A DNA stretch of 36,864 nt, from NCBI RefSeq assembly GCF_004153195.1, contig NZ_SEMC01000023.1, positions 1-36,864 of the forward strand, in the 5' to 3' direction. Below, one piece after another: positions 11,881 through 36,864 of this stretch. How positions within the stretch are numbered: the first letter of the stretch is position 1; every line of letters begins with the position of its first letter. This DNA is from Sporolactobacillus sp. THM19-2 (lineage in GTDB: Bacteria; Bacillota; Bacilli; Bacillales; Sporolactobacillaceae). A program made the translations under genes and the position numbers. Below the pieces are notes generated by a model, which made no database searches, had not been told where the DNA came from, and saw only the letters and a program-made list of their open reading frames with translations.

Positions 11881-12780
11881 GCATGAATACCGAGCACTCG
11901 GTATAATTGAAGTACCAACTACCAATTAATCGAGGCGGATTCATGCAATGAAAAGTATAACAGGTAATGATCGTCCATCAGCGGTCTTTTAGCTTCCGTC
12001 CTAACCATTTTAGTAGATTTCATTTTGCACAAATCGCACGGGCTTCTCATGCCACCAGGACAAAAGGGGTGCCTTTCCGTGTCTTGTTCTGCTATCTGAT
12101 CATCACGACTTTTTTCAAGCAAGTCGACGTATCGTGATTATCTGAAGCATCAGGATCAGTTGAATTTCTTGGATAAAACGTTCCGCAACCTGCTCAATAA
12201 CCGCCGGATCAACTGGCAAATGTTCCTGATTCTGCTCTGTCAACGGATCATTCGGTTTATCGAACCGTTGACGAATTCGGCGCTTCAGAACGTGTTCATT
12301 GTGGATGACTCGATGTACAAACGGTACAAACGGGCCCATGCCAAACACTTGGAACTGGCCGCTTTTCAATTTGACCATGCCGAGCCTCGGCATACACGTG
12401 GTTTTCGCTTTCTTCAGCTTGGCTGGAGTGAGGGCAACACGTTCCTGCCGGTCACTTTTTCCTTGCTTTCTGGTCAGAATCAGATATGTGGCGCGAAAGC
12501 CGATGCTCGGACGTATTCTGGGAAGCGAAAGCTTCAGGCCCAGCGGAAAGCGCTCAAAGTCGTTCAAGAACTTCTCGTGTCCGCTCTGAGTCAGGGATCC
12601 GAGTTTCCTACGTCTTGTTTGACTCGTGGTTCTCAAGCCCGAAGATGTTTCATCAGCTGCGTCAGCTCAAACTTCATACCGTTGACATGGTCAAGCGGTC
12701 CAAAAAAGTGTATTACCGGTTTAACGGCGAAATGATGGATGTCAAAGCGATCTTTAAGGCGCAGAAGAAACGTCGCCTGC
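11881..12780 (+). pseudogene. Decayed IS4-family transposase
   Basis: Fragments of an IS4-type DDE transposase are spread over different frames. The first recognisable start is ATG 11948 (MKSITGNDRPSAVF), which meets a stop after 14 codons. The part with the first catalytic Asp (NVFIVDDSMYKR) reads from about 12120, and a shift near 12595 moves the second Asp region (VSYVLFDSWFSSPKMF) to another frame. Similarity ends after KAQKKRR near 12775, before the catalytic Glu domain, so the C-terminus and right end are gone. An inverted repeat (GCATGAAT at 11881, ATTCATGC at 11939-11946) enclosing a second hairpin marks the leader. The element is dead. Confidence 0.85.
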
Positions 12781-21033: not shown

Positions 21034-21882
21034 GTGGATGACAATTTGTCTGCCGGACTAAAAGAAAGTATTCAAGCCGGCAAGTCCTTGCTCGTACCAG
21101 GTGTTTTTGATGGTATCTCCGCAAGACTAACTGAAGAAGCAGGATACCCCGCCGCATTGATTTCCGGGATCGGAGCATCAGCCACGTTGCTTGCTTCAGA
21201 CGACTACGGACTTTTATCCCTGTCAGAGCAGGCCAGGCAATTACGTTACATTCGTCAGACGGTTGAATTTCCGCTGTTTGTCGATGCGGAATCCGGCTAT
21301 GGAAACGCGTTGAACACCTTCTACACTGCAAAAGAATTAGAGCGATCCGGAGCGGCGGGATTGATACTGAACGATCAGTCCGTACCGGCCTCATCAGAAT
21401 TTTTTCAAGATTTAACCGTGATTGAAGCAGGGGAAATGATCGGGAAAATCCATGCAGTAAAAGACGCACTGGATCATCCGGATACCCTGCTGATTGCCCG
21501 AACCGATTGTCTTTCAGAAAGAGGATGGGATGAGGCGATCAGAAGGGTCGAACAGTACCGGAATGCCGGAGCCGATTTGGTGCTCGTCGGCGGCCTGACT
21601 GACCAGGCGGCAGTGACCCGGGCGGCGGAGTCATGCAACCGGTTGCCGATGGGCGTCACTATCATGGAAAACCAAAATAACACCTTCACATCTCAGGAAC
21701 TTTTTGAACTTGGATTTCGCCTAATCTTTTACCCGGCCGTTACTTTATTCGCGGCTGCTGAAGCCGAGGAAAAAGCACTGCAACTGCTGAAAAAAAACGG
21801 CCACTCCGGTCAGTCGGGCTCAGACATTTTAAACCGTCTGTCTGAAAATCTTTTTCAACCTGGAAAGAAGGTGTCCCCATGA
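21034..21882 (+). CDS. Isocitrate lyase/PEP mutase-superfamily protein, catalytic-Cys motif missing
   Basis: A 282-residue TIM-barrel protein of the isocitrate lyase/PEP mutase superfamily (SLLVPGVFDGISARLTEEAG; DAESGYGNALN; LIARTDC). Family lyases carry a K-[KR]-C-G-H loop with the catalytic cysteine. At that place this protein has DQSVPASSEFFQ, so it should not work as a classical lyase; phosphonopyruvate hydrolase or oxaloacetate decarboxylase-like chemistry, or a structural role, is possible. Start GTG 21034 follows a weak AAAGG site. It overlaps the next gene by four bases (ATGA), implying coupled expression of two unequal paralogues. Confidence 0.82.
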   Translation: MDDNLSAGLKESIQAGKSLLVPGVFDGISARLTEEAGYPAALISGIGASATLLASDDYGLLSLSEQARQLRYIRQTVEFPLFVDAESGYGNALNTFYTAKELERSGAAGLILNDQSVPASSEFFQDLTVIEAGEMIGKIHAVKDALDHPDTLLIARTDCLSERGWDEAIRRVEQYRNAGADLVLVGGLTDQAAVTRAAESCNRLPMGVTIMENQNNTFTSQELFELGFRLIFYPAVTLFAAAEAEEKALQLLKKNGHSGQSGSDILNRLSENLFQPGKKVSP

Positions 21883-22760
21883 AAGCCGATCGCATGCGCG
21901 CCCGATTCAATCAGCTCGTACATCAGCCGGAGATTATCAGCATGGTCGCCTGCCCGGACAGTCTCTCGGCAAAAATTGCTGAAAAAATCGGATTTAAAGC
22001 TATTTTTCAGGCGGGGTACACCACATCTGCTTCTGAACTGGCCATGCCCGACCGCGGAATTGCCGACTTCGGAATGATGGTTAACCGGGCCAGAGAAATC
22101 GTCAACTGTGTAGATATTCCTGTTTTTGCCGATGCGGATACCGGCTATGGAAATCTGAAGAATGTGGTCCGGACAGTCCGATGCTATGAAGCCATCGGCG
22201 TTGCCGGACTGTTTCTGGAAGACCAGATATGGCCCAAGCGATGTGGCCATATGGATGGGAAATCCGTCATCCCGATGGAAGAAATGGTCGAAAAAATACG
22301 GGTTGCGGCGTCCGCCCGTCGGCATCGCGATTTTCTGATCATGTCACGAACAGACGCCCGGGCCGTATACGGGCTGGAAGAAGCGATCCGGCGCAGCCAG
22401 GCCTGCCGGCAGGCCGGCGCGGACATGATCTTTATCGAAGCCCCGCAAAGCACGGGCGAGTTGAAAAAAATAGCAGCCGCCTTTCCGGACATCCCGCTGA
22501 TGGCGAATATGATCGAACACGGAAAAACGCCACTGCTAACCGCGGGTGAACTGCAGAAGCTCGGTTTCCGCATCGTGGTCCATCCGACCCTGCTCGCCTA
22601 TGCACAGACTTTTGCCGAACAGGAGGTGTTACAGGAACTGCACGAAAAGCAAACCACAGCAGGCGTGATCGACAGACTTGTTCCCTTTGATCAGTTCAAT
22701 CATTTTATCGGACTGGATGAAGTCAATGCACTGGAAAAACGTTACACCCGTCAATCATAA
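21879..22760 (+). CDS. Isocitrate lyase/PEP mutase-superfamily lyase (methylisocitrate/dimethylmalate lyase-like)
   Basis: A 293-residue C-C lyase of the methylisocitrate, 2,3-dimethylmalate or related 2-hydroxy-acid lyase type. It keeps the magnesium-binding DADTGYGN motif, EDQ, and the catalytic loop PKRCGHMDGK with its cysteine, followed by IMSRTDAR. Such enzymes cleave branched malates to pyruvate or similar products. It follows a divergent paralogue with a four-base overlap and precedes an MFS organic/aromatic-acid-type carrier, so the operon probably takes up and cleaves an organic acid. No methylcitrate synthase or dehydratase is beside it, which argues against a plain propionate cycle. 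Confidence 0.85.
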   Translation: MKADRMRARFNQLVHQPEIISMVACPDSLSAKIAEKIGFKAIFQAGYTTSASELAMPDRGIADFGMMVNRAREIVNCVDIPVFADADTGYGNLKNVVRTVRCYEAIGVAGLFLEDQIWPKRCGHMDGKSVIPMEEMVEKIRVAASARRHRDFLIMSRTDARAVYGLEEAIRRSQACRQAGADMIFIEAPQSTGELKKIAAAFPDIPLMANMIEHGKTPLLTAGELQKLGFRIVVHPTLLAYAQTFAEQEVLQELHEKQTTAGVIDRLVPFDQFNHFIGLDEVNALEKRYTRQS

Positions 22761-22818
22761 AGAAAAAAACCGCCAGAGATAAAAAAACACACGGTAAATA
22801 TAAGGGAGAGAAAGATAT

Positions 22819-24234
22819 ATGGAAACAGAAAGGACACTCGGTATCGGTCGTATCCGAACAACCGATGAAGTTCATGAGAAACAGTATTCACTGCCGGAGC
22901 GGCATCTCCTCGAGGCCCGCATCAATAATCTGCCGGCCACACGGACGATGTACAAAGTATTCACACTGATCACACTCGGTATGGTCCTCGACGGTTTTGA
23001 CGTCTATTTAGCCGGGGGCGTACTCAGCAGTCTGATCCAGACCGGCTGGTCCACCATGTTTTTGAATGCCGCATTCATTTCCACGACATTTATCGGACTT
23101 TTTCTCGGCTCAATCGCCTCCGGTGTCATCGGAGATTTAAAAGGCAGACAATTTGCCTACCAGATCAATCTGTTGATTTTTGGTCTGGCCTCACTCGCCA
23201 GCTTCTTTGCTCCGAACATGATCACGCTGATCATTCTCCGCGGGATCGCCGGATTCGGACTCGGTGCAGAAATTGTTACCGGTTTTGCCCTGCTCGGTGA
23301 ATTTGTCCCTGCCGGATCACGGGGTAAATGGGTCGGCAGTCTTTCCGTACTTGCCAACTGTTCAGCGCCTATTGCTACATTCATTGGTTTTCTGATTATC
23401 CCGTCCATCGGCTGGCGCTGGATGTTCGTGATTGTCGGCATCGCCTCATTAATCGTCTGGTACTTCCGCCGGAGTCTTCCGGAATCGCCCAGATGGTATT
23501 TTTCACAGGGCAGGTACAGCGATGCTGAGAAAGTGGTCAGGCAGTTTGAACAGGAAGCAGAGAAAAAATATGGAACCCGGCATCCTGGTGTCAATCTGAA
23601 CGATCAGCAACAATTTGATCAGATCGACACACGTAAAAGCCGGTTCAGTGAACTGTTCAGCAGTAACGAAATCAGGAAAACAATACTTGCCTGCGTCATC
23701 CTCGCTGCCATCAACACGGCTGCCTTTACCTTTGTCACCTGGGCGCCGACTCTCCTTGTTAATAGCGGTATCACCGTTTCCAAGTCACTCGGTTATAGCG
23801 CATTGATGATGCTCGGTGCGCCGGTTGGTGCCTTTATCGGCAGATCAACGGTCGATCGTATTGGCCGGAAATGGACGATTGTTGGCGCCTTTGTCATGAC
23901 TGCCATTTTCGGTTATGGCTATGCCTTTCAGACAAACCCGGCAGCAATCATGTCACTCGGCTTCCTGATGACCGTCTGCATCTATATTCTGATGGCTGTC
24001 GCGCTTTCCATCTACGTTCCCGAACTGTTCCCGACACGGCTGCGAATGCGTGGTAACGGAACAGCACAGGCTGTCGGCCGTTTCTTTACCATTATCACAC
24101 CTTACGCAGTAGCCGGCCTGCTCAGCACCCAGGGACCGATCAGTATTTTCATCATGATCGGCATCTTTATGGCTGTTACTGCAGTACTGACCATCTTCTG
24201 GGGACCGGAAACAAAGAAACAGATCCTTAAATAA
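22819..24234 (+). CDS. MFS transporter, aromatic/organic acid:H+ symporter-like (NiaP/AAHS type)
   Basis: A 471-residue, 12-helix permease with a long N-terminal cytoplasmic part ending in LPATRTMYKVFTLI, then GMVLDGFDVYLAGGV in helix 1 (the DGFD signature of acid symporters), IGDLKGRQ after helix 2, LPESPRWYFSQGR before the central loop, DRIGRKW in the loop 8-9, and ELFPTRLRMRGNGTA. These resemble carriers for niacin, benzoate and other organic acids. AAGGGAGAG precedes ATG 22819. It is third in the operon with the two lyases and is followed by a strong terminator. The true substrate is presumably the acid acted on by the lyases. Confidence 0.88.
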   Translation: METERTLGIGRIRTTDEVHEKQYSLPERHLLEARINNLPATRTMYKVFTLITLGMVLDGFDVYLAGGVLSSLIQTGWSTMFLNAAFISTTFIGLFLGSIASGVIGDLKGRQFAYQINLLIFGLASLASFFAPNMITLIILRGIAGFGLGAEIVTGFALLGEFVPAGSRGKWVGSLSVLANCSAPIATFIGFLIIPSIGWRWMFVIVGIASLIVWYFRRSLPESPRWYFSQGRYSDAEKVVRQFEQEAEKKYGTRHPGVNLNDQQQFDQIDTRKSRFSELFSSNEIRKTILACVILAAINTAAFTFVTWAPTLLVNSGITVSKSLGYSALMMLGAPVGAFIGRSTVDRIGRKWTIVGAFVMTAIFGYGYAFQTNPAAIMSLGFLMTVCIYILMAVALSIYVPELFPTRLRMRGNGTAQAVGRFFTIITPYAVAGLLSTQGPISIFIMIGIFMAVTAVLTIFWGPETKKQILK

Positions 24235-24473: not shown

Positions 24474-25541
24474 TCAGCAGATTTTTTCAAGGTCGGACAG
24501 TATTTCATGAATACTGAGATCGGCAGCTGCCATTGATCGGTCTGCCACACCATAATAAAGGTGCAGCGTATCCCCCTCGGTGATCCCTCCGCACGTAAAC
24601 ACGACGTCGCCGAAGAAACCGTTTCGTTCATAGTTCGCCTCCGGCTCAAGTATGGGGTGTTCTGAACGGGCAAGAATCTTCGAAGGATCATCTCTGTCAA
24701 GAAGCACCCCGCCAAGACAATATCTGCCGCCTGGAGACATCCCATGGTAAATTTCCAGCCAGCCGTCCTGAGTGAGAATCGGTACAGCCCCACCCCCGAT
24801 TCTGGCGGCATCCCATTTATTTGCCCGGGTCCCCATGAGATGGCGATGATTGCCCCAGCATTGAAGATTATCAGATTCAGATAGCCATATATCAAGACTG
24901 CCTACACTCTTTGGTGAAGGACGATTGAGTGCATAGTATTTACCTTTGATCTTCTCAGGAAAAATGACGACATCTTTACATTCAGGTAAGAAGATCAGCC
25001 CCCGATCATCATAATGTTTGAAGTCCTTTGTCGTCACAAGTCCGACGCCGATACCATACGCCGATACAGCACTGAAGTAAATCGCATAGGTGTCACCCAT
25101 TTGTGTGATCCTCGGGTCTTCTATGCCAAATGTCTGGTAACGATTACATGGATAAATAAATGGTTGATCATCAACAGTGAAGTGACGACCATCCCTGCTC
25201 CGGGCAAGTCGGAGATAGGACAGGGAGGTTAAACCGACAAAGCGATCCGTATTTTTTCTCAACCTGATTGTCCGGCTATCTTCAAAATTCAGTTCAGGAT
25301 CCTGAAGATCATAGTTCTTGACGACAACTTTTCGCTTCACTTCGTCATAGTATGGCGATGGAACTTTAGATGGATCTTCTCTAACAGGACGTTCAGCCAC
25401 ACGTAATAATAGCAGAGTTTCCCCATGAAAACTGGCAATGCCGGCATTAAACGCTCCTATGACTTCAAATCCCGGATGTATCGGTTTCACATCTTCCGGC
25501 TGAATCAGCGGATTTTCGATATAGCGACGAACATGTATCAT
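24474..25541 (-). CDS. GH130 glycoside phosphorylase (beta-mannoside phosphorylase type)
   Basis: A 355-residue five-bladed beta-propeller enzyme of family GH130, which reversibly phosphorolyses beta-1,2- or beta-1,4-mannosides to mannose 1-phosphate. Family landmarks in order: GAFNAGIASF, LLLLRVAERP, RYQTFGIEDPRIT with the catalytic Asp, KDVVIFPEKI.GKYYALNRP, GGGAVPI, YHGM, and YERNGFFGDVVFTCG. No signal peptide, so it acts in the cytoplasm. It stands alone without a mannoside transporter nearby. A TATAAT lies at 25587-25582 on the minus strand, upstream of the ATG. Substrate linkage cannot be told from the sequence. Confidence 0.92.
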   Translation of the reverse strand: MIHVRRYIENPLIQPEDVKPIHPGFEVIGAFNAGIASFHGETLLLLRVAERPVREDPSKVPSPYYDEVKRKVVVKNYDLQDPELNFEDSRTIRLRKNTDRFVGLTSLSYLRLARSRDGRHFTVDDQPFIYPCNRYQTFGIEDPRITQMGDTYAIYFSAVSAYGIGVGLVTTKDFKHYDDRGLIFLPECKDVVIFPEKIKGKYYALNRPSPKSVGSLDIWLSESDNLQCWGNHRHLMGTRANKWDAARIGGGAVPILTQDGWLEIYHGMSPGGRYCLGGVLLDRDDPSKILARSEHPILEPEANYERNGFFGDVVFTCGGITEGDTLHLYYGVADRSMAAADLSIHEILSDLEKIC

Positions 25542-25781
25542 CTTTATTTTCCATCCTCACTTAATTATGGCCTGCATCATCATTATAATTTTTATTGTCC
25601 GAGAGGATACCCTAGCCGACATTTTTAGTTCCAGGGATTTCTTTATTTATCTACATGATGGGGCATAAGTCATCCAAAAGTTATCCAATTCCAGAAGATC
25701 CGGTGAATGTTATGCTAAACGTATTTTTTCAGGGTATGGGCAGAGTATTCAGCCACGTTCTGGAAGGGTACAGGGTCTATA

Positions 25782-25829
25782 AAAATAAAAAAAGAAGGGT
25801 TGAATGTGAATAAAATCACTCAATCCTTC
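25782..25829 (-). terminator. Terminator of the ten-gene polyol operon
   Basis: On the minus strand GAAGGATTGAGTG (25829-25817) pairs with CATTCAACCCTTC (25806-25794) using two G-T pairs, followed by TTTTTTTATTTTTA. It lies 26 bases past the rpe stop. The gap 25542-25781 shows only the start region of GH130 and nothing else recognised. Confidence 0.9.
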
Positions 25830-25854: not shown

Positions 25855-26505
25855 TTATGCTATGATCCCGGTTAATGTATGAATCGCCTCAAGTCGGTTC
25901 TTTTGACCGAAAACAGCGGAACCGGCAACAATAATTGATGCTCCGGCTTTCAGGCAGAGTGGCAGGGTCTGTTTATTTATTCCTCCGTCAACTTCAATAT
26001 TAATATTGAGTTGTTCGGCGTCAATAAATAATTTTGCTTCGTGTATTTTTTGAAGCATGGAATCAATAAACGTCTGACCACCAAAGCCGGGATCTACAGT
26101 CATGATCAGGATATAATCCAGATCTGGCAGAACAGGTTTAATTTGAGAAAATGGTGTTGCCGGGTTTAACACAACACCCGCCTGCACACCGCCATCCTTG
26201 ATCAGTTGTATCGTTCTATGCAGATGTCTGCAGGCTTCAGCATGTACGGAAATCATGTCAGCGCCTGCATTTATAAAGGATGGAATGAGATGATCGGGCT
26301 CATCCACCATTAAATGGACATCTATATCCATCGCTGTCTCTTTTTTTAATGCGGCAACAACATTTGCCCCAAATGTGATGTTCGGTACAAAATGTCCGTC
26401 CATCACATCAAAGTGAATCAGATCAATACCCGCCCTTTCAACATCACGAACTTCTCTGGAAAGGTGAGCAGCATTCGCAGATAAAATCGATGGTGCCAGA
26501 CGCAT
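25855..26505 (-). CDS. rpe: Ribulose-phosphate 3-epimerase
   Basis: Interconverts ribulose 5-phosphate and xylulose 5-phosphate. A 216-residue TIM barrel with LAPSILSANAAHL, the metal-binding HFDVMDGHFVPNITFG, DVHLMVDEP, MTVDPGFGGQTF and EVDGGI with the catalytic Asp. The start is ATG 26505: AGAGG lies nine bases upstream, whereas the earlier in-frame ATG at 26526 has no ribosome site. Last gene of the operon, directly before its terminator. A second housekeeping rpe probably exists elsewhere; this copy serves the pathway here. Confidence 0.96.
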   Translation of the reverse strand: MRLAPSILSANAAHLSREVRDVERAGIDLIHFDVMDGHFVPNITFGANVVAALKKETAMDIDVHLMVDEPDHLIPSFINAGADMISVHAEACRHLHRTIQLIKDGGVQAGVVLNPATPFSQIKPVLPDLDYILIMTVDPGFGGQTFIDSMLQKIHEAKLFIDAEQLNINIEVDGGINKQTLPLCLKAGASIIVAGSAVFGQKNRLEAIHTLTGIIA

Positions 26506-26544
26506 TTCATATCGCCTCTCTTTCATTAATCATATACAGAAGCA

Positions 26545-26997
26545 TCAGACATGAGATTCTTCTTTTTCAATTCGGGTGATCAGATCCAACCGTCTTTGAT
26601 GTCTTCCACCCTGAAATTTGGCATTCAGCCAGGCGTCCACAATCATTTTAGCCAGTTCCGGTCCTATAACCCGCGAACCAAACGCAAGTATATTTGTATT
26701 ATTATGTTCACGGCTCAATTTTGCAGAGAAGGGCTCGCTGCAGACCACTGCACGAATACCCGGGACTTTATTTGCGGCTATGGAAATGCCCACTCCTGTT
26801 CCGCAAATGAGAATGCCAAGATCAGCCTCACCACTGACCACTGCATCAGCAACTTTCCTGGCATATACAGGATAGTCGACACTTTCCGTGGAATGCGTCC
26901 CTTTATCAATGACTTCAATACCTTTTTCAATTAAATAATCCTGGATGGCAGGCTTTAAATCAAAACCTGCATGGTCACAACCAATAGCTATTTTCAT
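26545..26997 (-). CDS. rpiB: Ribose-5-phosphate isomerase B
   Basis: Interconverts ribose 5-phosphate and ribulose 5-phosphate. A 150-residue RpiB/LacAB-type protein with IGCDHAGFDLK, ILICGTGVGISIAANK (catalytic Cys) and REHNNTNILAFGSRV. LacA/LacB sugar isomerases of galactose-6-phosphate are relatives, but the neighbouring transketolase, transaldolase and epimerase favour RpiB. Start ATG 26997 with AAGGTGAG upstream; GTG 27006 lies inside that site. Confidence 0.92.
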   Translation of the reverse strand: MKIAIGCDHAGFDLKPAIQDYLIEKGIEVIDKGTHSTESVDYPVYARKVADAVVSGEADLGILICGTGVGISIAANKVPGIRAVVCSEPFSAKLSREHNNTNILAFGSRVIGPELAKMIVDAWLNAKFQGGRHQRRLDLITRIEKEESHV

Positions 26998-27045
26998 TCG
27001 ACTCACCTTCTGATTTTATCAGGCTGGCTAGATTCAGTCAGTGAT

Positions 27046-29055
27046 TTATACTGTTTGTTCTTTCATCAACATTTTTTTCATGGCTGCCGCAACCTTTTCC
27101 GGAGTAAATCCGAATTTTGAAACGACTAAAGGTCCAGGAGCGGAAGTTCCAAAACGGTCAATCGTGATCAAATCACCTTCGTCACCAATAAACTCTTTCC
27201 AGCCCAGTGAAGACCCCATTTCTATCGCCAGTCTCTTTTTTATCGCTGGAGGAAGAACCTTGTCCCGATACGAGCGTGACTGTTTTCTGAACAGTTCCCA
27301 CGAAGGAAGACTGACAACTCGAACCTCTATTGAATCGCGTTGCAGAATTTGCTGAGCTTTAACTGCAAGTTCTACTTCTGAACCGGTTGCAAGGAGAATG
27401 CCCTGAGCTTCAGTGCGGGAATCAGAGACAATATAACCACCTCTCTTCACACCCTCAGAGGCACGTTCTGTTTCTCCTTCCACCGTCTGGACACCCTGAC
27501 GTGTTAATACGATTATCGTCGGCTGATTATGGCTTTCGACAGCAATTTTCCACGCTTCACGTACCTCATTACCATCTGCTGGTCGTATAAGGTTTACATT
27601 TGGAATGGCTCGTAACCCGGCCAGCTGTTCAATAGGTTCGTGTGTCGGACCATCCTCACCTACAGCAACGGAATCATGTGTGAATACAAATATGGAAGGA
27701 ATACCCATCAGGGCGGCAAGGCGAATAGCCGGTTTCATATAATCTGAAAATGTAAAGAAGGTTGAGCAGAATGGCATAACACCCCCATGCAACACCATTC
27801 CGTTAACCGCTGCGGCCATTGCAAACTCCCGGACGCCAAACCATATATTACGTCCACTGTAGTGTCCGGGGAGAAAGTCTCCGCTGCTGCTTATCGTTGT
27901 TTTTGTGGATGAAGCCAGATCAGCCGCACCGCCAAACAGTTGAGGCACAGACTCGGCCAGTTTATTAATTACTTCACCGGATGTTGCCCGAGTGGCTTTC
28001 TTCGTTTCGGGTCCATAGAGAGGTAACTGATCTGCAAAGTGATCAGAAACTTCTCGGTCAACAGCTTGCTTTAACTGTGCAGCCAGTTTCGGGTATTTCT
28101 CTTCATAGGCAGCAAATTTTCTTTTCCACGCATTTTCTGCTATTTGTCCGTCAGAAGCGATTGCCTTAAAATGTTCCTTTATTTCTTCTGGAACCGTGAA
28201 TGGTTCATATTTCCAGCCATAGGCTTTCTTAGCCCCTGCAGCTTTCTCAGCACCCAACGGATTTCCATGAACTTTATTGGTTCCGGCAACATCAGGAGCC
28301 CCGTAACCAATGGTTGTACGTACCTCAATGAGTGTCGGACGGGTTTCATCCATATCAGCGTGATCCAGTGCCTGTTTAATGGCGATCACATCATTTCCGT
28401 CTTCAACCAGCAGCGTTTGCCAGCCGTAGGCTTCAAAGCGTTTTCTCACATCTTCAGTAAAAGCCATGTCTAATTTTCCATCCAAAGATACTTTATTAGA
28501 ATCATAGAGCATAACCAGACGACCAAGCTTTAACCGGCCTGCCAGTGAAGCCGCTTCACTCGCTACCCCTTCCATTAAATCGCCATCACCGCAAAGCACA
28601 TATGTGTGATGATTCACAATATCATAGTCTTCTCGGTTATAAACTGATCTAAGGTGTGCTTCTGCCATAGCCATACCGACTGCCATAGCTACACCTTGTC
28701 CAAGAGGCCCGGTCGTCGCTTCAACACCAGGGGTGTGGCCGTATTCAGGATGTCCGGGTGTCAGGCTGCCCCACTGACGGAACTGTTTAATATCCTCAAG
28801 CGTTATGCCATATCCGAACAGGTGAAGCAAACTGTAAAGAAGCATGGATCCATGACCGGCAGAAAGAATAAAGCGATCACGATTAAACCATTCAGGATCA
28901 GCGGGATTATGCTTCATTTTCTTCGCCCAGAGCGTATAAGCCATAGGTGCCGCCCCCATGGGGAGCCCGGGATGTCCGGACTTTGCTTTTTCAATGGCAT
29001 CAATGGATAACGTACGAATCGTATCAATTGACAATTGATCTAGTGAAACAGGCAT
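27046..29055 (-). CDS. tkt: Transketolase
   Basis: A 669-residue thiamine-diphosphate enzyme moving two-carbon units between pentose and other sugar phosphates. Visible are the N-terminal [10 protein letters not shown] and the ThDP motif [19 protein letters not shown] ending in YDSN, HGNPLG, the pyrimidine-domain [34 protein letters not shown] and the C-terminal [10 protein letters not shown]. Full length. GAGGAG precedes the ATG. A 108-base gap before it, carrying a cre-like site, suggests an extra internal promoter or CcpA roadblock. Confidence 0.97.
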
Positions 29056-29115
29056 AAAGACATCTCCTCATCTAAATATATTTGATCTTTCTCCTCACAT
29101 AGAAGAGTCATCATC

Positions 29116-29129
29116 AGATAGCGTTTTCA
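29116..29129 (-). promoter_or_regulatory. Possible cre site before transketolase
   Basis: On the minus strand TGAAAACGCTATCT matches TGWAANCGNTNWCA at all but the last position. It lies about 60 bases upstream of tkt inside the polyol operon, where it could act as an internal CcpA roadblock or control a secondary promoter. Confidence 0.45.
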
Positions 29130-29163
29130 AAGTCAATAGCAAGGCATATATGACGTCGTAAAA

Positions 29164-29907
29164 TCATCCCCTGCTTACTGAACTGGCTTCATCTTGTGAT
29201 AGAATCGTATAACCAAGAGACTGGATATCTTTGTTAAACCCTTTTACTGTATCAAGGGATACCTGCTCCAGTGACTTACCAACTTTTTTAAGTTTTTCAA
29301 TGATTGCCGGCGTACAGGTAATAATATCGACACCCAGACGATCCGCTTCATAGACATTAAAAAGTTCACGAGAACTTGCCCATAGCAGTTGTGCACCCTT
29401 ATTATGCTTGCAAAGCTCAACTGATTTCTTCATATAAGGAATGGGATCACGTCCTGTATCAGCTATTCTCCCGGCGAAAACGGATACAATATTTTCAACA
29501 TCCGGATCCAGTGCTGCAACTGTATCCTCAACTTGTTTTGTTGTTAGAATAGCTGTTACATTCAGGGAAAAGCCTTTTTTTTGCAGCTTTTTTATTAACG
29601 GGATGGACGATTCACCTTTGGTATTCGTAATAGGAATTTTAATGAAGACGTTTTTCCCGAATGAATGTATTTTTTCCGCTTCTTTTTCCATCGTTTCAAA
29701 GTCGTCGGCAAACACTTCAAAGGACAATGGTAAATCCGGAATTTTTTCGACGACTTCTTTGGCAAAGGCAACGTAATCTGCCACACCTGCCCGTTTCATT
29801 AGACTGGGATTGGTTGTAAAACCGGAAACGAAACCGGCTTTATAAGCTGATAGCATGTCATTAATGTCCGCACCATCTGCATAAATCTTTACCTTTAAAT
29901 GATTCAT
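29164..29907 (-). CDS. tal: Transaldolase (short type)
   Basis: A 247-residue transaldolase-family barrel moving dihydroxyacetone units between sugar phosphates. Landmarks are KIYADGADINDML, FTTNPSLMKRAGV, the Schiff-base lysine in NVFIKIPITNTKG, and NVTAILTTKQ. It is shorter than the classical 315-residue enzymes and close in size to the TalC/fructose-6-phosphate aldolase group, so aldolase activity is an alternative. The start is ATG 29907: GGAGG is seven bases upstream; an extension to 29934 overlaps the preceding dehydrogenase and lacks a site. Confidence 0.9.
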   Translation of the reverse strand: MNHLKVKIYADGADINDMLSAYKAGFVSGFTTNPSLMKRAGVADYVAFAKEVVEKIPDLPLSFEVFADDFETMEKEAEKIHSFGKNVFIKIPITNTKGESSIPLIKKLQKKGFSLNVTAILTTKQVEDTVAALDPDVENIVSVFAGRIADTGRDPIPYMKKSVELCKHNKGAQLLWASSRELFNVYEADRLGVDIITCTPAIIEKLKKVGKSLEQVSLDTVKGFNKDIQSLGYTILSQDEASSVSRG

Positions 29908-29930
29908 ATCTATTCCTCCAGATATTTTTT

Positions 29931-30971
29931 TCAAATATTCCCGGATTTAATGAGCACCTTAATTTCGTGTCCACCCATAACGGATTCAAAAGCATCTCTC
30001 CATTTCTCCAGTGGGAAGACCTTCGTGATCATCTTATCTGCATTAATTTTTCTTCTTGTTAACAAATCCAGAGCAATTAACCATGAACTTGGCTTCTGTG
30101 AACGGCTGCCAATATAAGTAATTTCTCTCTGAATAATTGATTCTTCGTCAATCGGGTTAGCCTTCTTTGCAAACAAACCAACCTGAACGAATGTCCCCTT
30201 CTTACGAACCAATGGTAACCCCTGGTTCACTGCAGGGACAGCACCGGAACAATCAAATACTCGATCAACACCATACCCATCTGTGTGTTTCAAAACAATG
30301 TCTTCCAGATTTTCTTTCATGGTATCTACAACAATATCTGCGCCAAGCTGTTTCGCTAATTCGAGTCTATCCTTATCTTTGGTAATGCCAGACATGATCA
30401 CAAATGCACCTTGGGCTTTAACAACCTGCAGCATCAGTAAACCAATCGGCCCTGGCCCAAAAATCAGAACCTTATCCGAATCGCTGACAGTCGTCTTCTC
30501 AAGTGCTGCATGTACACAGCAGGAAAGTGGTTCACTTAATGCAGCTGCCTGATATGATAGACTGTCGTCAAGAACATGACAGCTTTCTTCCCTAGACAGA
30601 ACATATTTTGCAAAACTTCCGTTAGCCTGAGTACCTATACCTCTACGATGACTGCACAAGTTATAATCTTTTTCTTCACAATATCGACATTTTTCACAGG
30701 TCTCAAATGTCGTCTCACTTGTCACCCTGTCTCCGACTTTAATGTTCTTCACATCAGGTCCGACTTCAACAACCTTTCCGGAGAATTCATGTCCCAGCGT
30801 CACAGGTGTTGTTGGATTTTTGTACTCTCCTTTGAAAGTGTGAATATCTGACCCGCAAATTCCTGTATAAGCAACCTCTATTTTCACACGATCACCATAT
30901 ACTTCTGGTTCAGGGACATCTTTCAAAACCATTTGATCATAACCCGGAGCTTCTTTGACGACTGCTTTCAT
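29931..30971 (-). CDS. Zinc-dependent medium-chain polyol dehydrogenase, first of two
   Basis: A 346-residue MDR-superfamily NAD(P)-dependent dehydrogenase like sorbitol, threonine and polyol-phosphate dehydrogenases. The catalytic zinc Cys and the His-Glu are in TGICGSDIH and LGHEFSG; four structural-zinc cysteines are in CEKCRYCEEKDYNLC; the Rossmann loop is FGPGPIG. It lies in the operon between a second dehydrogenase (five-base gap) and transaldolase. Likely oxidises a pentitol phosphate, or an isomer not handled by its neighbour, to a pentulose phosphate. The exact substrate is inferred from context. Confidence 0.9.
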   Translation of the reverse strand: MKAVVKEAPGYDQMVLKDVPEPEVYGDRVKIEVAYTGICGSDIHTFKGEYKNPTTPVTLGHEFSGKVVEVGPDVKNIKVGDRVTSETTFETCEKCRYCEEKDYNLCSHRRGIGTQANGSFAKYVLSREESCHVLDDSLSYQAAALSEPLSCCVHAALEKTTVSDSDKVLIFGPGPIGLLMLQVVKAQGAFVIMSGITKDKDRLELAKQLGADIVVDTMKENLEDIVLKHTDGYGVDRVFDCSGAVPAVNQGLPLVRKKGTFVQVGLFAKKANPIDEESIIQREITYIGSRSQKPSSWLIALDLLTRRKINADKMITKVFPLEKWRDAFESVMGGHEIKVLIKSGNI

Positions 30972-30976
30972 TTGTC

Positions 30977-32026
30977 TTACACCTCTGTGTTTGGTAAAAT
31001 CATAACTTTATTAAAGGGTTCTCGGCGATTTAGCATCATATCAAAAGCTTTGTCCGTATCTTTTAGATTAAATCTGTGAGAAATATAGGGTGTTAAGTTT
31101 AATTTTTTTTGCTGAATAAAACCTATGGCCGCATGCCAAGATCTTCCGGGGAAGGGTGCGGTATAAGAATTCCAACTCCCCTTCAAAGTCAATTCACGCC
31201 GAAAAATATTCTCGAATGCTTTTTCATGAAGGGTAACATCTGAATAAGCGATTCCTATATACCCTACTTTTCCCTTCTTTTTCGGGACTAACAAAATTTG
31301 CTCCTGAGTGACTTTAGAACCAGCACATTCAAATGCGATATCTACACCTTTTTGATTTGTTATCTTCAGTATTTGTTGTTCGACATCTTCATTCATTGGG
31401 TTTATGGTGTACTGACATCCTATTTTTCTCGCTTCAACTAATTTTTCGGGCGCAATATCAATTGCAATAATTTCTTTAACGCCTGCGAGTTTCAACCACT
31501 CAATCACTAACATTCCTATTGTTCCAATTCCAAAAACTGCTGCTTGATCACCAATTTGAGGATTAAGACTCATGACCCCATGCAGAGCAACCGCTGCAGG
31601 TTCAATCATGGCAGCCTCTTCAAAATCAATATCATCAATAGGGAGCACATTGGTTACAGGTATGTTTGCATACTCTGCAAATCCTCCATATCTTACTGAA
31701 CCAATCATTTTGTAATTTTCACACAGTGAATATTCACCTCTCTCGCAATATTCACATCTTCTGCATGGAATAAAGGGAACGACAACAACATGTTGCCCCT
31801 TCTCAAAATTTCTGACTTCTGTACCCTTTTCAACAACTATTCCAGAAAACTCATGACCCATGATTGCTGGCAATGGATATTTCCATTTCGATTTCATCTT
31901 GTGAGTATCAGAGCCACATATCCCACAAGCCAAAACTTTTATTTTAACTTCATCAGATTTAAGTTTTGGTAACGTTACATCTTCATAATGAATTTCGTTA
32001 TTCTCGCGTAAAACAGCCGCTTTCAT
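30977..32026 (-). CDS. Zinc-dependent polyol-phosphate dehydrogenase (GatD-like), second of two
   Basis: A 349-residue MDR dehydrogenase resembling galactitol-1-phosphate 5-dehydrogenase. Catalytic Cys37 sits in CGICGSDTHK, the zinc His-Glu in MGHEFSG, structural-zinc cysteines in CRRCEYCERGEYSLC and the coenzyme loop in FGIGTIG; SWNSYTAPFPGRSWHAAI near the C-terminus is typical of GatD-like members. It directly follows the EIIC gene, so it should act on the phosphorylated polyol delivered by this PTS. As no tagatose pathway genes are present, a pentitol 5-phosphate is the more likely substrate. Confidence 0.9.
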   Translation of the reverse strand: MKAAVLRENNEIHYEDVTLPKLKSDEVKIKVLACGICGSDTHKMKSKWKYPLPAIMGHEFSGIVVEKGTEVRNFEKGQHVVVVPFIPCRRCEYCERGEYSLCENYKMIGSVRYGGFAEYANIPVTNVLPIDDIDFEEAAMIEPAAVALHGVMSLNPQIGDQAAVFGIGTIGMLVIEWLKLAGVKEIIAIDIAPEKLVEARKIGCQYTINPMNEDVEQQILKITNQKGVDIAFECAGSKVTQEQILLVPKKKGKVGYIGIAYSDVTLHEKAFENIFRRELTLKGSWNSYTAPFPGRSWHAAIGFIQQKKLNLTPYISHRFNLKDTDKAFDMMLNRREPFNKVMILPNTEV

Positions 32027-32051
32027 CCTATTCGCCTCTATAAATTTTTAT

Positions 32052-33320
32052 TTAAAATATTGAATGTAACAACTGCGCAAACTTCAAAATGATCCAATTT
32101 AATGGATTTCCTCCCATATCGAGCGAAGACACCTGTGTCACACCTTGTGGAAAGTCATATACGCCCTTCATCATCTCCGTATGAACAGGCCCAAAATCCG
32201 TCGCCATCAGCAAGGAAAGAGATAGAACGATGGTCCCAGCTAATACTGAATGAATAATGTTGCCCTTTCTTGAAGCAACAATAAAAGATACATAAAATGG
32301 TATCGTTGCTAAATCTCCAAAAGGTAATACCTTATTCCCTGGGATTATAACAGCCAGTATCAATGTAATCGGTACCAAAATTAACCCCGTTGCTATATTG
32401 GCAGGATGTCCAATTGAGAGTGCTGCGTCCAACCCCAAATGAACTTCTCGACCATGATATTTTTTGCTCAGATATTCTCTAACAGACTCTGATATCGGAA
32501 TCAGACCTTCCATCAGTATTTTTACCATACGGGGCATTAAATACATAACACCTCCCATTGCAATTCCCAATTTAAAAGCATTACCAATATCATATTTAGC
32601 TAGAAGTCCGATTACGAAACCAATGATTAAGCCCATAATCATGGGTTCGCCAAATATGCCAAACCGCTTCTGGATTGTTTCTGGATCCGCTTTCAATTTA
32701 TTAATACCTGGAATTTTTGAAATCAACCAGCCAATAGGCATACCAATAAGACCGAAAGCGGCAGTTGATCCTGTTGGTAAAGAGATACCCTCCAATCCAT
32801 AAAATTTTTGTACCATGGGAGCAGTACGATCCGCAATAATCAGAACAATCACTTCAAAGATGAACGCACATAGGATCGCAAACCACCAATTGCCGGTTAC
32901 AATATATCCAGTTGCACCGGCCGCCATAAAGTGCCAGTAATTCCAGATGTCAATATCTAATGTTTTAGTTACTTTTACGAATAATAGAAGAATGTTTAGC
33001 AACAAACACAAAGGAATCAATATTGCCGCGACAGGAGATGCCCAGGATGCTGCTGCTGCTGATGGCCATCCGGTATCAACAATCGTTAGATTGATACCAA
33101 AATTTTTGACCATTTGCTGAGCTGCTGGGCCTAAATTATCAGTTAATAAACCAATAACTAAATTTATACCCACAAAACCTATACCGATTATAATCGCCGA
33201 TTTAAAAGCTTTACCAAATCGGACCCGGAAAATAATCGCTATGAGGAATATAGCTAAAGGCAAAATAACTGTAGCCCCTAGATTTAAAATATACTGCACA
33301 ACGTTATACAGAGTATCCAT
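32052..33320 (-). CDS. gatC: PTS EIIC, galactitol (SGAT) family
   Basis: Membrane channel of a galactitol-type PTS, 422 residues with about ten hydrophobic segments. Family features include the N-terminal LNLGATVILPLAIFLIA, a SAAAASWASP stretch, TGNWWFAI, and the conserved GLDAALSIGHPANIATGLIL near the C-terminus. It forms with the separate EIIB and EIIA proteins downstream of the activator. The family transports galactitol, but also pentitols such as arabitol, ribitol and xylitol in Gram-positive bacteria; the operon context favours a pentitol. The gene symbol names the family only. Confidence 0.9.
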   Translation of the reverse strand: MDTLYNVVQYILNLGATVILPLAIFLIAIIFRVRFGKAFKSAIIIGIGFVGINLVIGLLTDNLGPAAQQMVKNFGINLTIVDTGWPSAAAASWASPVAAILIPLCLLLNILLLFVKVTKTLDIDIWNYWHFMAAGATGYIVTGNWWFAILCAFIFEVIVLIIADRTAPMVQKFYGLEGISLPTGSTAAFGLIGMPIGWLISKIPGINKLKADPETIQKRFGIFGEPMIMGLIIGFVIGLLAKYDIGNAFKLGIAMGGVMYLMPRMVKILMEGLIPISESVREYLSKKYHGREVHLGLDAALSIGHPANIATGLILVPITLILAVIIPGNKVLPFGDLATIPFYVSFIVASRKGNIIHSVLAGTIVLSLSLLMATDFGPVHTEMMKGVYDFPQGVTQVSSLDMGGNPLNWIILKFAQLLHSIF

Positions 33321-33344
33321 TCCACTTCCTCCTTTGTAATCAGT

Positions 33345-33626
33345 TTATTTTAGATATCCAAGAATTTTTTCATCCATTGCCTCCATATTGATTCCCGAAA
33401 TATAAGCAGTTGCAACAACAGCAGGAATTTCATATTTTGTCGGCAAAATAGTAGATGAAACGATTAAATCTGCATCTCTTTGTTTGGATTTAACTTCAGT
33501 AATCTTGCATTGAACAATTTCCGCATCAATATGATTTTTTTTAAATAACTTCTCAACACGGTCAACCAGCACGGTAGAAGTAGCAATTCCTGCTCCGCAG
33601 GCAACAAGCACTCTTTTTTTAGCCAT
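33345..33626 (-). CDS. gatB: PTS EIIB, galactitol type
   Basis: A 93-residue phosphoryl carrier. The phosphorylated cysteine lies in the P-loop-like motif VACGAGIATSTVL near the N-terminus, followed by the helix VDRVEKLFKKN. It receives phosphate from EIIA at 33642-34115 and passes it to the polyol during transport by EIIC. Spacing of 24 and 15 bases to its neighbours indicates one transcript. Confidence 0.93.
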   Translation of the reverse strand: MAKKRVLVACGAGIATSTVLVDRVEKLFKKNHIDAEIVQCKITEVKSKQRDADLIVSSTILPTKYEIPAVVATAYISGINMEAMDEKILGYLK

Positions 33627-33641
33627 ATTTTTCCCTCCAGA

Positions 33642-34115
33642 TTATCTATTTATTGAAGCACATAAGGTTAATGCTTTAAATAATTCATCTTTATCACTTG
33701 CATTTACCAATTGAGTGACGTGTTTTTCATTTTGAATCATGCCTACTAATTCCTTCAAGGCTTCAAGCTGAAAATGAGGTTCATTAAGGCCCAACATAAA
33801 GACCAGAGAAACATCAACATCCTGAGTTTTATCCGCCATTTGCTGGAAAACAACAGGGGGGGCCAGGGTGGCAACAGCAATAAATTGTTTTTTTACGCAT
33901 TCTGCATCTGTATGCGGAATGGCCACATTATAATGATTCAGCTTCAACCCTGTAGGGAAGTTTCTTTCCCGATCGACTACTCTGCTTAGAAAATCATCTG
34001 TTACATATCCTCTCTGATAAACCTGTTCGCCAAGGAATTGAAAGAGCTCCTTTTGAGTGTTGAATGACAGTTTGAGGAAAATCAAATCTTTTTTGATAAA
34101 TTGATCTATGCTCAT
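33642..34115 (-). CDS. gatA: PTS EIIA, fructose/mannitol/galactitol type
   Basis: A 157-residue EIIA-2 domain protein accepting phosphate from HPr. The active histidine is in HYNVAIPHTDAECV (PHTD). The start is ATG 34115 because AAAGGAGGAG lies eight bases upstream; that site falls in the end of the activator gene, whose stop is at 34135-34137. It is a soluble single-domain protein, as usual for galactitol-type systems. It may also pass phosphate to the activator's PRDs. Confidence 0.92.
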   Translation of the reverse strand: MSIDQFIKKDLIFLKLSFNTQKELFQFLGEQVYQRGYVTDDFLSRVVDRERNFPTGLKLNHYNVAIPHTDAECVKKQFIAVATLAPPVVFQQMADKTQDVDVSLVFMLGLNEPHFQLEALKELVGMIQNEKHVTQLVNASDKDELFKALTLCASINR

Positions 34116-34134
34116 AAAAATCTCCTCCTTTCTC

Positions 34135-36228
34135 TTATTCAAGCGCCGGCTCTTTCACGGCACCAAGAAATTCTTTAATAACTTGAGATAATGCCACATT
34201 TGACTGCGCACTTTTCATCCTTTCGATACATGATTGCGATTGGGCAATCCGGCATAATTGTCGTAGTGCATTGAAGTGTGATGTTTTATCGACAGCTGCC
34301 AGGGTAACAACAAAATATACTTTCTTCCCGTTCTGTACCTTTATCCCTCTTCGGATGTGCAGGAGACTCATACTCATTTGACGGACGCCATTTTGAGGCT
34401 CTGCATGAGGAAGAATAATATTACCGAATAAAGTGATATGGAGAGCTGGTTCATGATATAATTGTTTTAACGTATTAATGTATTGGATGGTAATCGTGTT
34501 TTGTTGCAGCAGAACACTGGCGCTCTTTTCCAGGGCATCCATCCAGTTTTTTACTGAATCAACTTGACGGATGGTTAAAGGCGTGAGCAGGTCATCCAAT
34601 TGAACCGGAACTCTCCTATATTCAGAAATATTTTCATCATAATTTGCTATTGAACCACTGCTGAATAAATTTTCCAGTTCCGTGCATAGTTTTTTTGGGT
34701 TTTTTATATCAGCATAACGACTGATTACATCCATCAGTGCTGTAAAATCTACTTCCATTGCGTCTAGATGATAAAGTTCTTTGATCACCCGCTGTTTAAG
34801 TTCCCTTTTTTCCCTCTCATTCATCATTTCATTGATAACGAAGAGTCGTGCCTCTGTCTTTAATGGTACAGCTGAGAATACGACATCAATGGGATACTGG
34901 AACTTTTTAAACTCTCTGACTGACATTGCGGGATAGAAGAACATATATGAAAACATATGACGTAACGAATTTTCCATCAGCAGTGATATTGAGATGCCAT
35001 TTGTGCAAACTACTGCCGCTCTGATTCGTCCATCCAATTGATCCTTATCCTGGATAAGATGGCTACCGATAAATAATGAGATAAACAAAACTTCTCTATC
35101 AGGGATAGATACTCCAATAAATTGTTCCAGTGGCTGAATAGATTTTTTTACAAAATAATTGATGAGTTTATATTCGTGACTGATTTGGCTCAACCCATTG
35201 TAATTCGTCGTCAGACGATATTTGATTCGGTAATAAGCAGGTTTAAAGTGAACGAGCAATTTCTGTAATAATATTTTTTTATTTTTCAATGTAATACAGG
35301 CGTTTTTCTCAAATTGATCCAGAAAATTGGATAATGCTTTTTCCAGCTGTGGTAAAGCGCCATCTAGAATATAATGATTTGAAGAAATGATATTAGACGA
35401 CAGTAACTGCAAGGTAATGTAAATCCTTTCCTGTGGTAAAATATCAGTCTGTCCGTCAACTAAATCCTCTACAGCTTCATATTCGCGTGTATCTGAAAGC
35501 GTCCTATAATTAATCTGGAAAATATTATCAATTGTCTTACCTTGGTGTATCCTCCGGAAAATACCTTCAAGCAGAAAGGGCAATTCCATCATTTTTTTAT
35601 CAACAAATTTAATTCCCAATTTTCCTTCCATTAATTCAATCTTCTTTTGCCATAAAGCAATTTGCTCATCCGTCATCTTTAAATAATGTGCAAGATAAGC
35701 TTCACCTTCGTTTATGTGAATTAGATGATCTACTGCATTCATAAATGCTGATCGCTGATTCCACTCATCACCTTTAATGACATAGCCTTCCTTACGTGAA
35801 TAAACCAGTCTTAATTGAAATTTGTGTAAAAATGAATGTACTTCCTTTAGATCCCTTAATACAGTATTTCTGCTCACCTCCAGTTCAAACATAAAATGAT
35901 TCACGGACAATTGTTCTTCATAGGTGATCAACATAAGTACAATCACGTATGACCGTTCTTCGGTTGAGGGAATATACCAGTCGACTACGTTTTTTGTACC
36001 GTCTAGACTCCCCATCAACTTCATTAGTGCAGGCGGTATCATAAAATGACCAGAGGACGTGTGTTTGATCAGTGGATAGGTTTTATCCGATAGCCACCGA
36101 TTCAGCTTCGAAATCGTATAATCCACTTGACGTCGTGACAGTTGAAATACAGTTTGAAGATCTTTATTGGTTTTGTTCGGATGTGCCAATAAATAGTTCA
36201 ATAACATGTCGCTTCGTTTTTCCAGCAT
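34135..36228 (-). CDS. PRD-containing transcriptional activator (MtlR/LicR type) with EIIB-like and EIIA domains
   Basis: A 697-residue PTS-controlled activator. Order: N-terminal winged HTH (about 1-60), second HTH (VNHFMFELEVSRNTVLRDLK, about 108-130), PRD1 (about 190-290, candidate His228 in FRRIHQG), PRD2 (about 300-395, His327 in LLVHFKPAYY), an EIIB-Gat-like domain with Cys408 (AVVCTNGISIS) and a C-terminal EIIA-2 domain with His608 (ILPHAEP). The second PRD2 position, usually His, appears to be Phe in LFISLFIGSH. Phosphorylation by HPr and EII proteins should tune it to substrate and energy state. AGGAGG precedes ATG 36228. First gene of the operon it presumably activates. Confidence 0.93.
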   Translation of the reverse strand: MLEKRSDMLLNYLLAHPNKTNKDLQTVFQLSRRQVDYTISKLNRWLSDKTYPLIKHTSSGHFMIPPALMKLMGSLDGTKNVVDWYIPSTEERSYVIVLMLITYEEQLSVNHFMFELEVSRNTVLRDLKEVHSFLHKFQLRLVYSRKEGYVIKGDEWNQRSAFMNAVDHLIHINEGEAYLAHYLKMTDEQIALWQKKIELMEGKLGIKFVDKKMMELPFLLEGIFRRIHQGKTIDNIFQINYRTLSDTREYEAVEDLVDGQTDILPQERIYITLQLLSSNIISSNHYILDGALPQLEKALSNFLDQFEKNACITLKNKKILLQKLLVHFKPAYYRIKYRLTTNYNGLSQISHEYKLINYFVKKSIQPLEQFIGVSIPDREVLFISLFIGSHLIQDKDQLDGRIRAAVVCTNGISISLLMENSLRHMFSYMFFYPAMSVREFKKFQYPIDVVFSAVPLKTEARLFVINEMMNEREKRELKQRVIKELYHLDAMEVDFTALMDVISRYADIKNPKKLCTELENLFSSGSIANYDENISEYRRVPVQLDDLLTPLTIRQVDSVKNWMDALEKSASVLLQQNTITIQYINTLKQLYHEPALHITLFGNIILPHAEPQNGVRQMSMSLLHIRRGIKVQNGKKVYFVVTLAAVDKTSHFNALRQLCRIAQSQSCIERMKSAQSNVALSQVIKEFLGAVKEPALE

Positions 36229-36476: not shown

Positions 36477-36671
36477 TGTAAAATTAAGCCAAACGGCTCA
36501 ATGGTCAGTTGATCCCCCACCTTTTCTTTTGGAATACATAGGGTTTGCTGAATTAATAAAAAATGCTGATACAGCAGGATTTACGGACACTTTTGTCGAA
36601 CTTATATGCAAGGAGAAACACCAGATTTCCGGGCAATCCCGGAAAAAGCCTTGCACATGGAGCCGATTCAA

Positions 36672-36864
36672 ATGTATCGATATCAGGAACAGCAACTCAT
36701 CATGCCGGAAGACTTTTTCCTCCCTTTCGGGGGTACTTTGAATAAAGATAACCGCTGGGTACAGCTTGCTCAGATCATCCCCTGGTGGAAAGTTGAGGAG
36801 CACTACGCTGCGACGTTTAAAAAGACTACGGCGAAAGGCACAAGACCGCTGTCAGCCCGTTTGG
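36672..36864 (+). CDS. IS1182-type (IS5 superfamily) transposase, N-terminus, cut by window end
   Basis: The frame begins MYRYQEQQLIMPEDFFLPFG and continues with NRWVQLAQIIPWWKVEEHYA and KGTRPLSARL, the typical N-terminal domain of IS1182-type DDE transposases (FPFG.. NRWV.LA..IPW...E..Y). GGAG lies nine bases before ATG 36672; ATG 36657 in the same frame is an alternative. The catalytic domain is outside the window. No clear terminal inverted repeat can be placed without the other end. Confidence 0.82.
   Translation, partial: MYRYQEQQLIMPEDFFLPFGGTLNKDNRWVQLAQIIPWWKVEEHYAATFKKTTAKGTRPLSARL

Follow-up and report, generated by a model that had tools for sequence, protein, structure and literature searches.

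A phosphotransferase system (PTS) operon of ten genes occupies positions 25855 to 36228 of contig NZ_SEMC01000023.1 from Sporolactobacillus sp. THM19-2. We analysed this contig over its full 36,864 nucleotides, and this whole stretch is referred to as the window. A first-pass annotation, made from the letters alone, had described the operon as a galactitol-type PTS that probably serves pentitols and carries its own pentose phosphate branch. Ten intact open reading frames (ORFs) indeed follow each other head to tail on the minus strand, with exactly the boundaries given in that annotation. Pfam and NCBIfam name them, in order, as a PRD regulator, EIIA, EIIB, EIIC, two zinc-type medium-chain dehydrogenases/reductases (MDR; DH1 and DH2), transaldolase (tal), transketolase (tkt), ribose-5-phosphate isomerase B (rpiB) and ribulose-phosphate 3-epimerase (rpe). 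The succession of two dehydrogenases and four pentose phosphate genes therefore stands as first described, and these last four all pass curated cut-offs (Table 1).

Table 1. Features of the predicted pentitol operon in the window.
Feature	Position	Strand	Evidence or note
PRD-containing transcription regulator with C-terminal EIIA-like domain (MtlR/LicR type), first operon gene	34135..36228	-	Pfam
PTS EIIA, EIIA-2 family	33642..34142	-	PF00359, E 9.3e-37
PTS EIIB, nearest Gat type	33345..33626	-	PF02302
PTS EIIC, Gat family; predicted pentitol permease (EIIC-Axl orthologue)	32052..33320	-	PF03611, E 8e-102
DH1, GatD-like Zn-type MDR dehydrogenase; predicted pentitol-phosphate dehydrogenase	30977..32026	-	NCBIfam, identity
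DH2, Zn-type MDR dehydrogenase; predicted D-arabitol-phosphate dehydrogenase	29931..30971	-	identity
Transaldolase, TIGR02134 type	29164..29934	-	359.8 vs cut-off 281.95 bits
Transketolase	27046..29055	-	TIGR00232, 902.3 vs 682.25 bits
Ribose-5-phosphate isomerase B	26545..27006	-	TIGR01120, 219.3 vs 138.65 bits; LacA and LacB cut-offs missed
Ribulose-phosphate 3-epimerase	25855..26526	-	TIGR01163, 288.8 vs 212.6 bits
cre-like (CcpA) site, 47 bp upstream of regulator start codon	36276..36290	-	TTGAAAGCGCATACA
cre-like site inside the 108-bp tal-tkt gap	29116..29130	-	TTGAAAACGCTATCT; putative function
Probable intrinsic terminator after rpe: hairpin 25829-25794, then T-rich run	25780..25829	-	folding

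According to the ORF coordinates, regulator and EIIA overlap by 8 bp and DH2 and tal by 4 bp. The gaps between the other neighbours measure 15 bp (EIIA/EIIB), 24 bp (EIIB/EIIC), 25 bp (EIIC/DH1), 5 bp (DH1/DH2), 39 bp (tkt/rpiB) and 18 bp (rpiB/rpe), and the tal/tkt gap is the largest. From this layout we predict that the ten genes are co-transcribed as one operon. A chance assembly is unlikely, since Listeria and Sporolactobacillus shoreicorticis share the arrangement of the first six genes. Since the window is an entire contig (C25 in our labelling), the operon starts about 640 bp from a contig end.

Related loci were collected by scanning a genome collection with exact peptide patterns of one protein, a procedure that reaches close relatives only and returned 48 loci. 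The EIIC of the window is 83% identical to that of S. shoreicorticis and 77% identical over 422 residues to those of L. marthii, L. farberi, L. cossartiae and L. immobilis; EIIB shares 61–69% of its residues with the Listeria loci. In an EIIC tree of 75 rows, which leaves out the gatC pseudogene of Escherichia coli MG1655, the window and S. shoreicorticis pair with support of 100/99, and a 15-row clade with Listeria, Brochothrix and the same-family genome G018 is supported at 93/88. This tree contains five long end branches and possibly one false join between two distant groups. The identity to Listeria and the clade together suggest that the EIIC of the window is orthologous to the Lmo2665-type EIIC. 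The operon of G018 is likewise an orthologous pentitol operon; it has two tandem EIIB genes (L082, 7413–7993) and no tal, tkt, rpiB or rpe match after DH2.

Conservation extends to the gene order. The sequence regulator-EIIA-EIIB-EIIC-DH1-DH2 is found in 10 of 10 Listeria loci, and eight of them continue with rpiB, an rpe-like gene, tkt and rpe. One of the two exceptions (L011) has only rpiB and the rpe-like gene, and in the other (L008) the sequence covered reaches only about 1 kb past DH2. Split matches occur for the regulator in L011 and L045, for DH1 in L003 and for tkt in L003 and L045. From the locus map, we take the Listeria loci to correspond to lmo2668–lmo2659, the PTS-Axl operon. According to one report, D-arabitol and D-xylitol are transported by the Lmo2665–2667 PTS of L. 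monocytogenes (PMC13082608), and a second account states that this organism uses both pentitols and has PTS for both (PMC10667646); both papers cite Kentache 2016. Gene order, EIIC identity and these reported substrates support the proposal of a pentitol PTS with its own pentose phosphate branch.

The two dehydrogenases differ in their relationships. DH2 is 71–78% identical to the DH2 of Listeria and 67% identical to the dehydrogenase of a PTS locus in Enterococcus avium (L032). DH1 shares 58–60% of its residues with the Listeria DH1 and 33% with E. coli GatD. It also carries the stretch SWNSYTAPFPG, which matches SWMNYSSPWPG in GatD and does not occur in DH2. Among solved structures, DH1 had its best match in E. 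coli GatD (4a2c) and DH2 in a ketose reductase (1e3j). The matches listed, namely the best 60 of 143 for DH1 and the best 60 of 111 for DH2, include none named as a pentitol-phosphate dehydrogenase. After the second strand of the cofactor fold, DH1 reads DIA and DH2 reads GITKD, which suggests that DH1 may prefer NAD and that DH2 may have a looser preference.

The distribution of both enzymes was counted over 49 distinct loci, comprising the 48 named ones and G018; L081, a duplicate of L002, was counted once, and L083–L089 were left out. DH2 is present in 49 of 49. Both dehydrogenases lie downstream of EIIC in all 19 loci with an EIIC at least 66% identical to that of the window, and in 18 of these DH1 reaches 55% identity or more. 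The exception is Brochothrix, where the order is reversed and the matches reach 38% for DH1 and 50% for DH2. All of the 30 loci with an EIIC identity of 57–62% contain DH2 (56–68%), and none contains a DH1 of at least 50%; ten of them hold a GatD-type match of 38–39%, which belongs to a second PTS gene set that includes a regulator, an EIIA and an EIIC of its own. These 30 loci with DH2 only form one EIIC clade (support 100/100). The 19 loci with two dehydrogenases split into two EIIC groups (6 and 15 rows, window included), the union of which has no supported node. On the simplest reading, DH2 would be the core D-arabitol-phosphate enzyme and DH1 would extend the range to a second pentitol. 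The earlier suggestion that two dehydrogenases mean two pentitols gains support, though not proof, from this comparison of 19 with 30 loci. The pattern provides a simple testable rule as to whether a Gat-type PTS operon handles one pentitol or two.

Taken together, we read the locus, with a probability of about 0.86, as a PTS operon that serves D-arabitol together with a second pentitol (in all likelihood xylitol) and that corresponds in Sporolactobacillus to the PTS-Axl operon of Listeria. Gene content, order, families and orthology are established directly, while the substrates, and which dehydrogenase takes which pentitol phosphate, we infer. The choice of this pentitol pair is suggested by orthology. 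In the proposed pathway EIIA, EIIB and EIIC would import and phosphorylate the pentitol, DH2 would oxidise D-arabitol phosphate, and DH1 would oxidise the phosphate of the second pentitol. The products would be D-xylulose 5-phosphate and D-ribulose 5-phosphate. These pentose phosphates would be interconverted by Rpe and RpiB, and transketolase and transaldolase would turn them into fructose 6-phosphate and glyceraldehyde 3-phosphate.

A closely related explanation is that the operon serves ribitol, or ribitol together with D-arabitol, so that DH1 would make D-ribulose 5-phosphate from ribitol 5-phosphate. This proposal overlaps with the D-arabitol and xylitol assignment, differing from it in the second pentitol only, and the odds of the two are not exclusive. 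The product would enter the same route through RpiB, Rpe, transketolase and transaldolase, and gene content alone does not distinguish pentitols. We nevertheless consider ribitol improbable. Ribitol uptake in L. casei BL23 proceeds through a mannose-type PTS, which we count against this assignment. Moreover, the characterised Listeria counterpart has been tied to D-arabitol and D-xylitol (PMC13082608).

The galactitol question requires a closer look at the PTS proteins. The first-pass annotation was right to call them galactitol-type in so far as EIIC belongs to the Gat family and Gat models are the best NCBIfam matches for EIIA and EIIB, as they are for DH1. The equivalog cut-offs are however missed by all four: EIIA scores 91.5 against 139 bits with the GatA model, EIIB 69.7 against 95 bits with GatB, EIIC 512.5 against 542.2 bits with the EIIC-Gat model TIGR00827, and DH1 239.6 against 550 bits with GatD. 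As positive controls, GatA (298.7 bits), GatB (202.7 bits) and GatD (729.4 bits) from E. coli pass their own models. Family scans also confirmed that neither a tagatose-6-phosphate kinase nor a tagatose-bisphosphate aldolase is among the ten genes. In the genome as a whole (3.0 Mb, 70 contigs labelled C17, C18, C19 and so on, completeness 100), no class II aldolase of the GatY/FbaA family was matched, while the control was positive in 11 of 14 genomes. The profile for class I fructose-bisphosphate (FBP) aldolase, PF00274, is uninformative, since it matched neither this genome nor any control genome.

Several observations weigh against the pentitol assignment. The Listeria comparison covers other Listeria species, with the L. 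monocytogenes sequence itself outside the set. A Listeria EIIC misses the EIIC-Gat cut-off by a similar margin (514.3 vs 542.2 bits), and the control set has no galactitol EIIC. DH1 belongs to the GatD subfamily. Promoter-like sites in the window are at background level (36 against a shuffle mean of 30.9). Finally, a LacD-family (class I tagatose/fructose-bisphosphate) aldolase is encoded on another contig (C50:213838–214791), and together with phosphofructokinase it could in principle complete a tagatose route. This gene adjoins MntH and lies a few frames from a MotA-type gene. No PTS component or kinase was named among 7 scanned of the 14 listed frames around it (three of the seven have no family at the strict threshold). 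As no class II aldolase was found, the LacD-family enzyme may do glycolytic duty. A search of the genome for 1-phosphofructokinase-type (1-PFK) kinases returned five matches, of which the one above the cut-off (C33) is taken to be a putative fruK, from its score alone; those below include one in C18 and one in C19, the latter being the ribokinase of the C19 cluster described below.

A GatY-like match was found in only 2 of the 48 named related loci (L016 and L023; some loci are short-flanked), each more than 4 kb from EIIC. In Bacillus methanolicus, an operon annotated as galactitol PTS and sorbitol dehydrogenase (atlABCD) is arabitol-induced, and galactitol gave no growth (PMC6685057). A galactitol label could mislead here, as the first-pass annotation warned, a pitfall that is already in print for B. 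methanolicus, and we argue for a pentitol label instead. That EIIC imports galactitol and DH1 makes tagatose 6-phosphate, to be processed by an unlinked kinase and the LacD-family aldolase beside pentose genes of unrelated purpose, is very unlikely, and we reject galactitol as the main function given the four missed Gat cut-offs, the lack of a class II aldolase match and a LacD gene without named PTS or kinase neighbours among the 7 scanned of 14 surrounding frames.

The operon contains a complete non-oxidative pentose phosphate set (tal, tkt, rpiB and rpe, 29934–25855). Phosphoketolase had no match in the genome, with the control positive in 4 of 14 genomes, so that transketolase and transaldolase are the expected route for xylulose 5-phosphate. 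A second tal-tkt pair lies in a ribose/gluconate cluster on C19 (L094 8853–12058, L078 939–9008), which includes ribokinase, rpe, 6-phosphogluconate dehydrogenase (gnd), gluconokinase, an IlvD/Edd-family dehydratase, an Eda aldolase, a GntP gluconate permease, tal and tkt. The copies of window and C19 are 74% (tal), 64% (tkt) and 66% (rpe) identical. A third tkt (C17) and a second RpiB (C18) are 53% and 42% identical to those of the window. The two tal and two rpe matches of the genome all belong to either the window operon or the C19 cluster.

Similar pairs recur within the genus. Tal-tkt stands beside 6-phospho-3-hexuloisomerase and a sugar-kinase-like gene in L119, beside a fructose-type EIIC in L125, and beside another Gat-type PTS, a class II aldolase and a TIM-like gene in L087; L123 and L126 have tal without a tkt match nearby. 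Among 13 same-genus genomes, six gave strong transaldolase matches (best E at most 2.4e-125), two weak ones and five none. In S. shoreicorticis (G005), tal directly follows DH2 and the contig ends there. Another contig of this assembly begins with the end of tal, followed by tkt and rpiB; the 9 kb covered contain no rpe match. In this assembly several copies of tal are located at contig ends, and each contig was treated separately. These observations could describe a lineage without constitutive non-oxidative pentose phosphate genes. In such a lineage tal and rpe would exist only as inducible copies attached to catabolic operons, copies of a tal-tkt cassette would have spread among unrelated sugar operons, and each pentose-yielding substrate would thereby bring its own branch. 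We regard this idea as possible but doubtful. The third tkt and the second RpiB, both on other contigs, weigh against it, and the search behind it covered tal, tkt, rpe and RpiB. The recurring tal-tkt pair is nevertheless a small lead on how the pentose phosphate pathway is arranged in these fermenters.

The regulator contains an Mga helix-turn-helix (HTH) domain (residues 97–163), a PRD (301–389) and a PTS_EIIA_2 domain (549–686). Considering full-length matches only, it is 41–44% identical to Listeria regulators, and it shares 52% with that of S. shoreicorticis. Its domains and its likeness to Listeria predict an MtlR/LicR-type activator. The regulator would activate the operon through PTS-dependent phosphorylation, and CcpA may repress it at a cre-like site; the regulation is predicted in all its parts. 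With the cre consensus, the window gave five sites, whereas shuffled sequences averaged 0.79 (five or more in 0 of 100 shuffles); three of the five fall inside genes. The tal-tkt gap folds unremarkably (z -0.45). After rpe, positions 25780–25855 fold with -13.8 kcal/mol (z -3.4), and none of 200 shuffles folded equally well. This hairpin is absent from the list of a simple terminator scan (12 sites against a shuffle mean of 8.8).

Past the probable terminator, a gene similar to GH130-family mannoside phosphorylases lies downstream of the operon (24474–25541, minus strand). On the plus strand, two adjoining genes of the PEP-mutase/isocitrate-lyase superfamily followed by an MFS transporter (21034–24234) may constitute a small unit for organic-acid catabolism. 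A frame of 538 amino acids (12486–14102, plus strand) gave a weak alpha/beta hydrolase match at residues 102–155; its N-terminal part looks transposase-like by eye, so the frame could be an insertion sequence (IS) remnant or a fusion. Partial frames on the plus strand occupy both contig ends, a TnpB-like one by eye at 3–698 and one without Pfam match at 36606–36863. Mobile elements there would explain the assembly breaks.

Compared with known systems, the operon shares the family of its EIIA, EIIB and EIIC with the gat system of E. coli, besides the GatD-like DH1. In place of the gatY and gatZ of E. coli it contains tal, tkt, rpiB and rpe. Enterococcus avium reportedly has a D-arabitol-phosphate dehydrogenase operon, described by Povelainen in 2003. 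The E. avium locus L032, which may or may not hold the published enzyme, resembles the window in its regulator, EIIA, EIIB, EIIC (59%) and DH2-type dehydrogenase. It lacks a close DH1, and tal, tkt, rpiB and rpe are without a match within 9 kb. Both dehydrogenases are present in L013, another E. avium locus.

The atl operon of B. methanolicus is similar in having a regulator, a Gat-type PTS and two dehydrogenases, one of them for arabitol phosphate and the other bearing the annotation galactitol-1-phosphate 5-dehydrogenase (PMC6685057). AtlD shares 51% of its residues with the arabitol-phosphate dehydrogenase of E. avium and AtlC 56% with the Listeria protein, and transport by AtlABC itself could not be demonstrated (PMC6685057). 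The genes downstream differ, being annotated as a hypothetical protein and a methylthioribose-1-phosphate isomerase, and the part of Table 3 covered includes no tal, tkt, rpiB or rpe (PMC6685057).

A literature search, judged from its listing, returned nothing relevant linking Sporolactobacillus with arabitol. The likeness is closest to Listeria PTS-Axl, since both operons contain a regulator, EIIA, EIIB, EIIC, two MDR dehydrogenases, rpiB, tkt and rpe. In contrast to Listeria, which has no tal at this position, the window has tal before tkt (tal, tkt, rpiB, rpe), and it lacks the additional rpe-like gene of Listeria (32–37% identical to the Rpe of the window). This operon type, a Listeria-type D-arabitol/xylitol PTS operon with pentose phosphate genes, is already described and largely ordinary; the present locus extends it to Sporolactobacillus.

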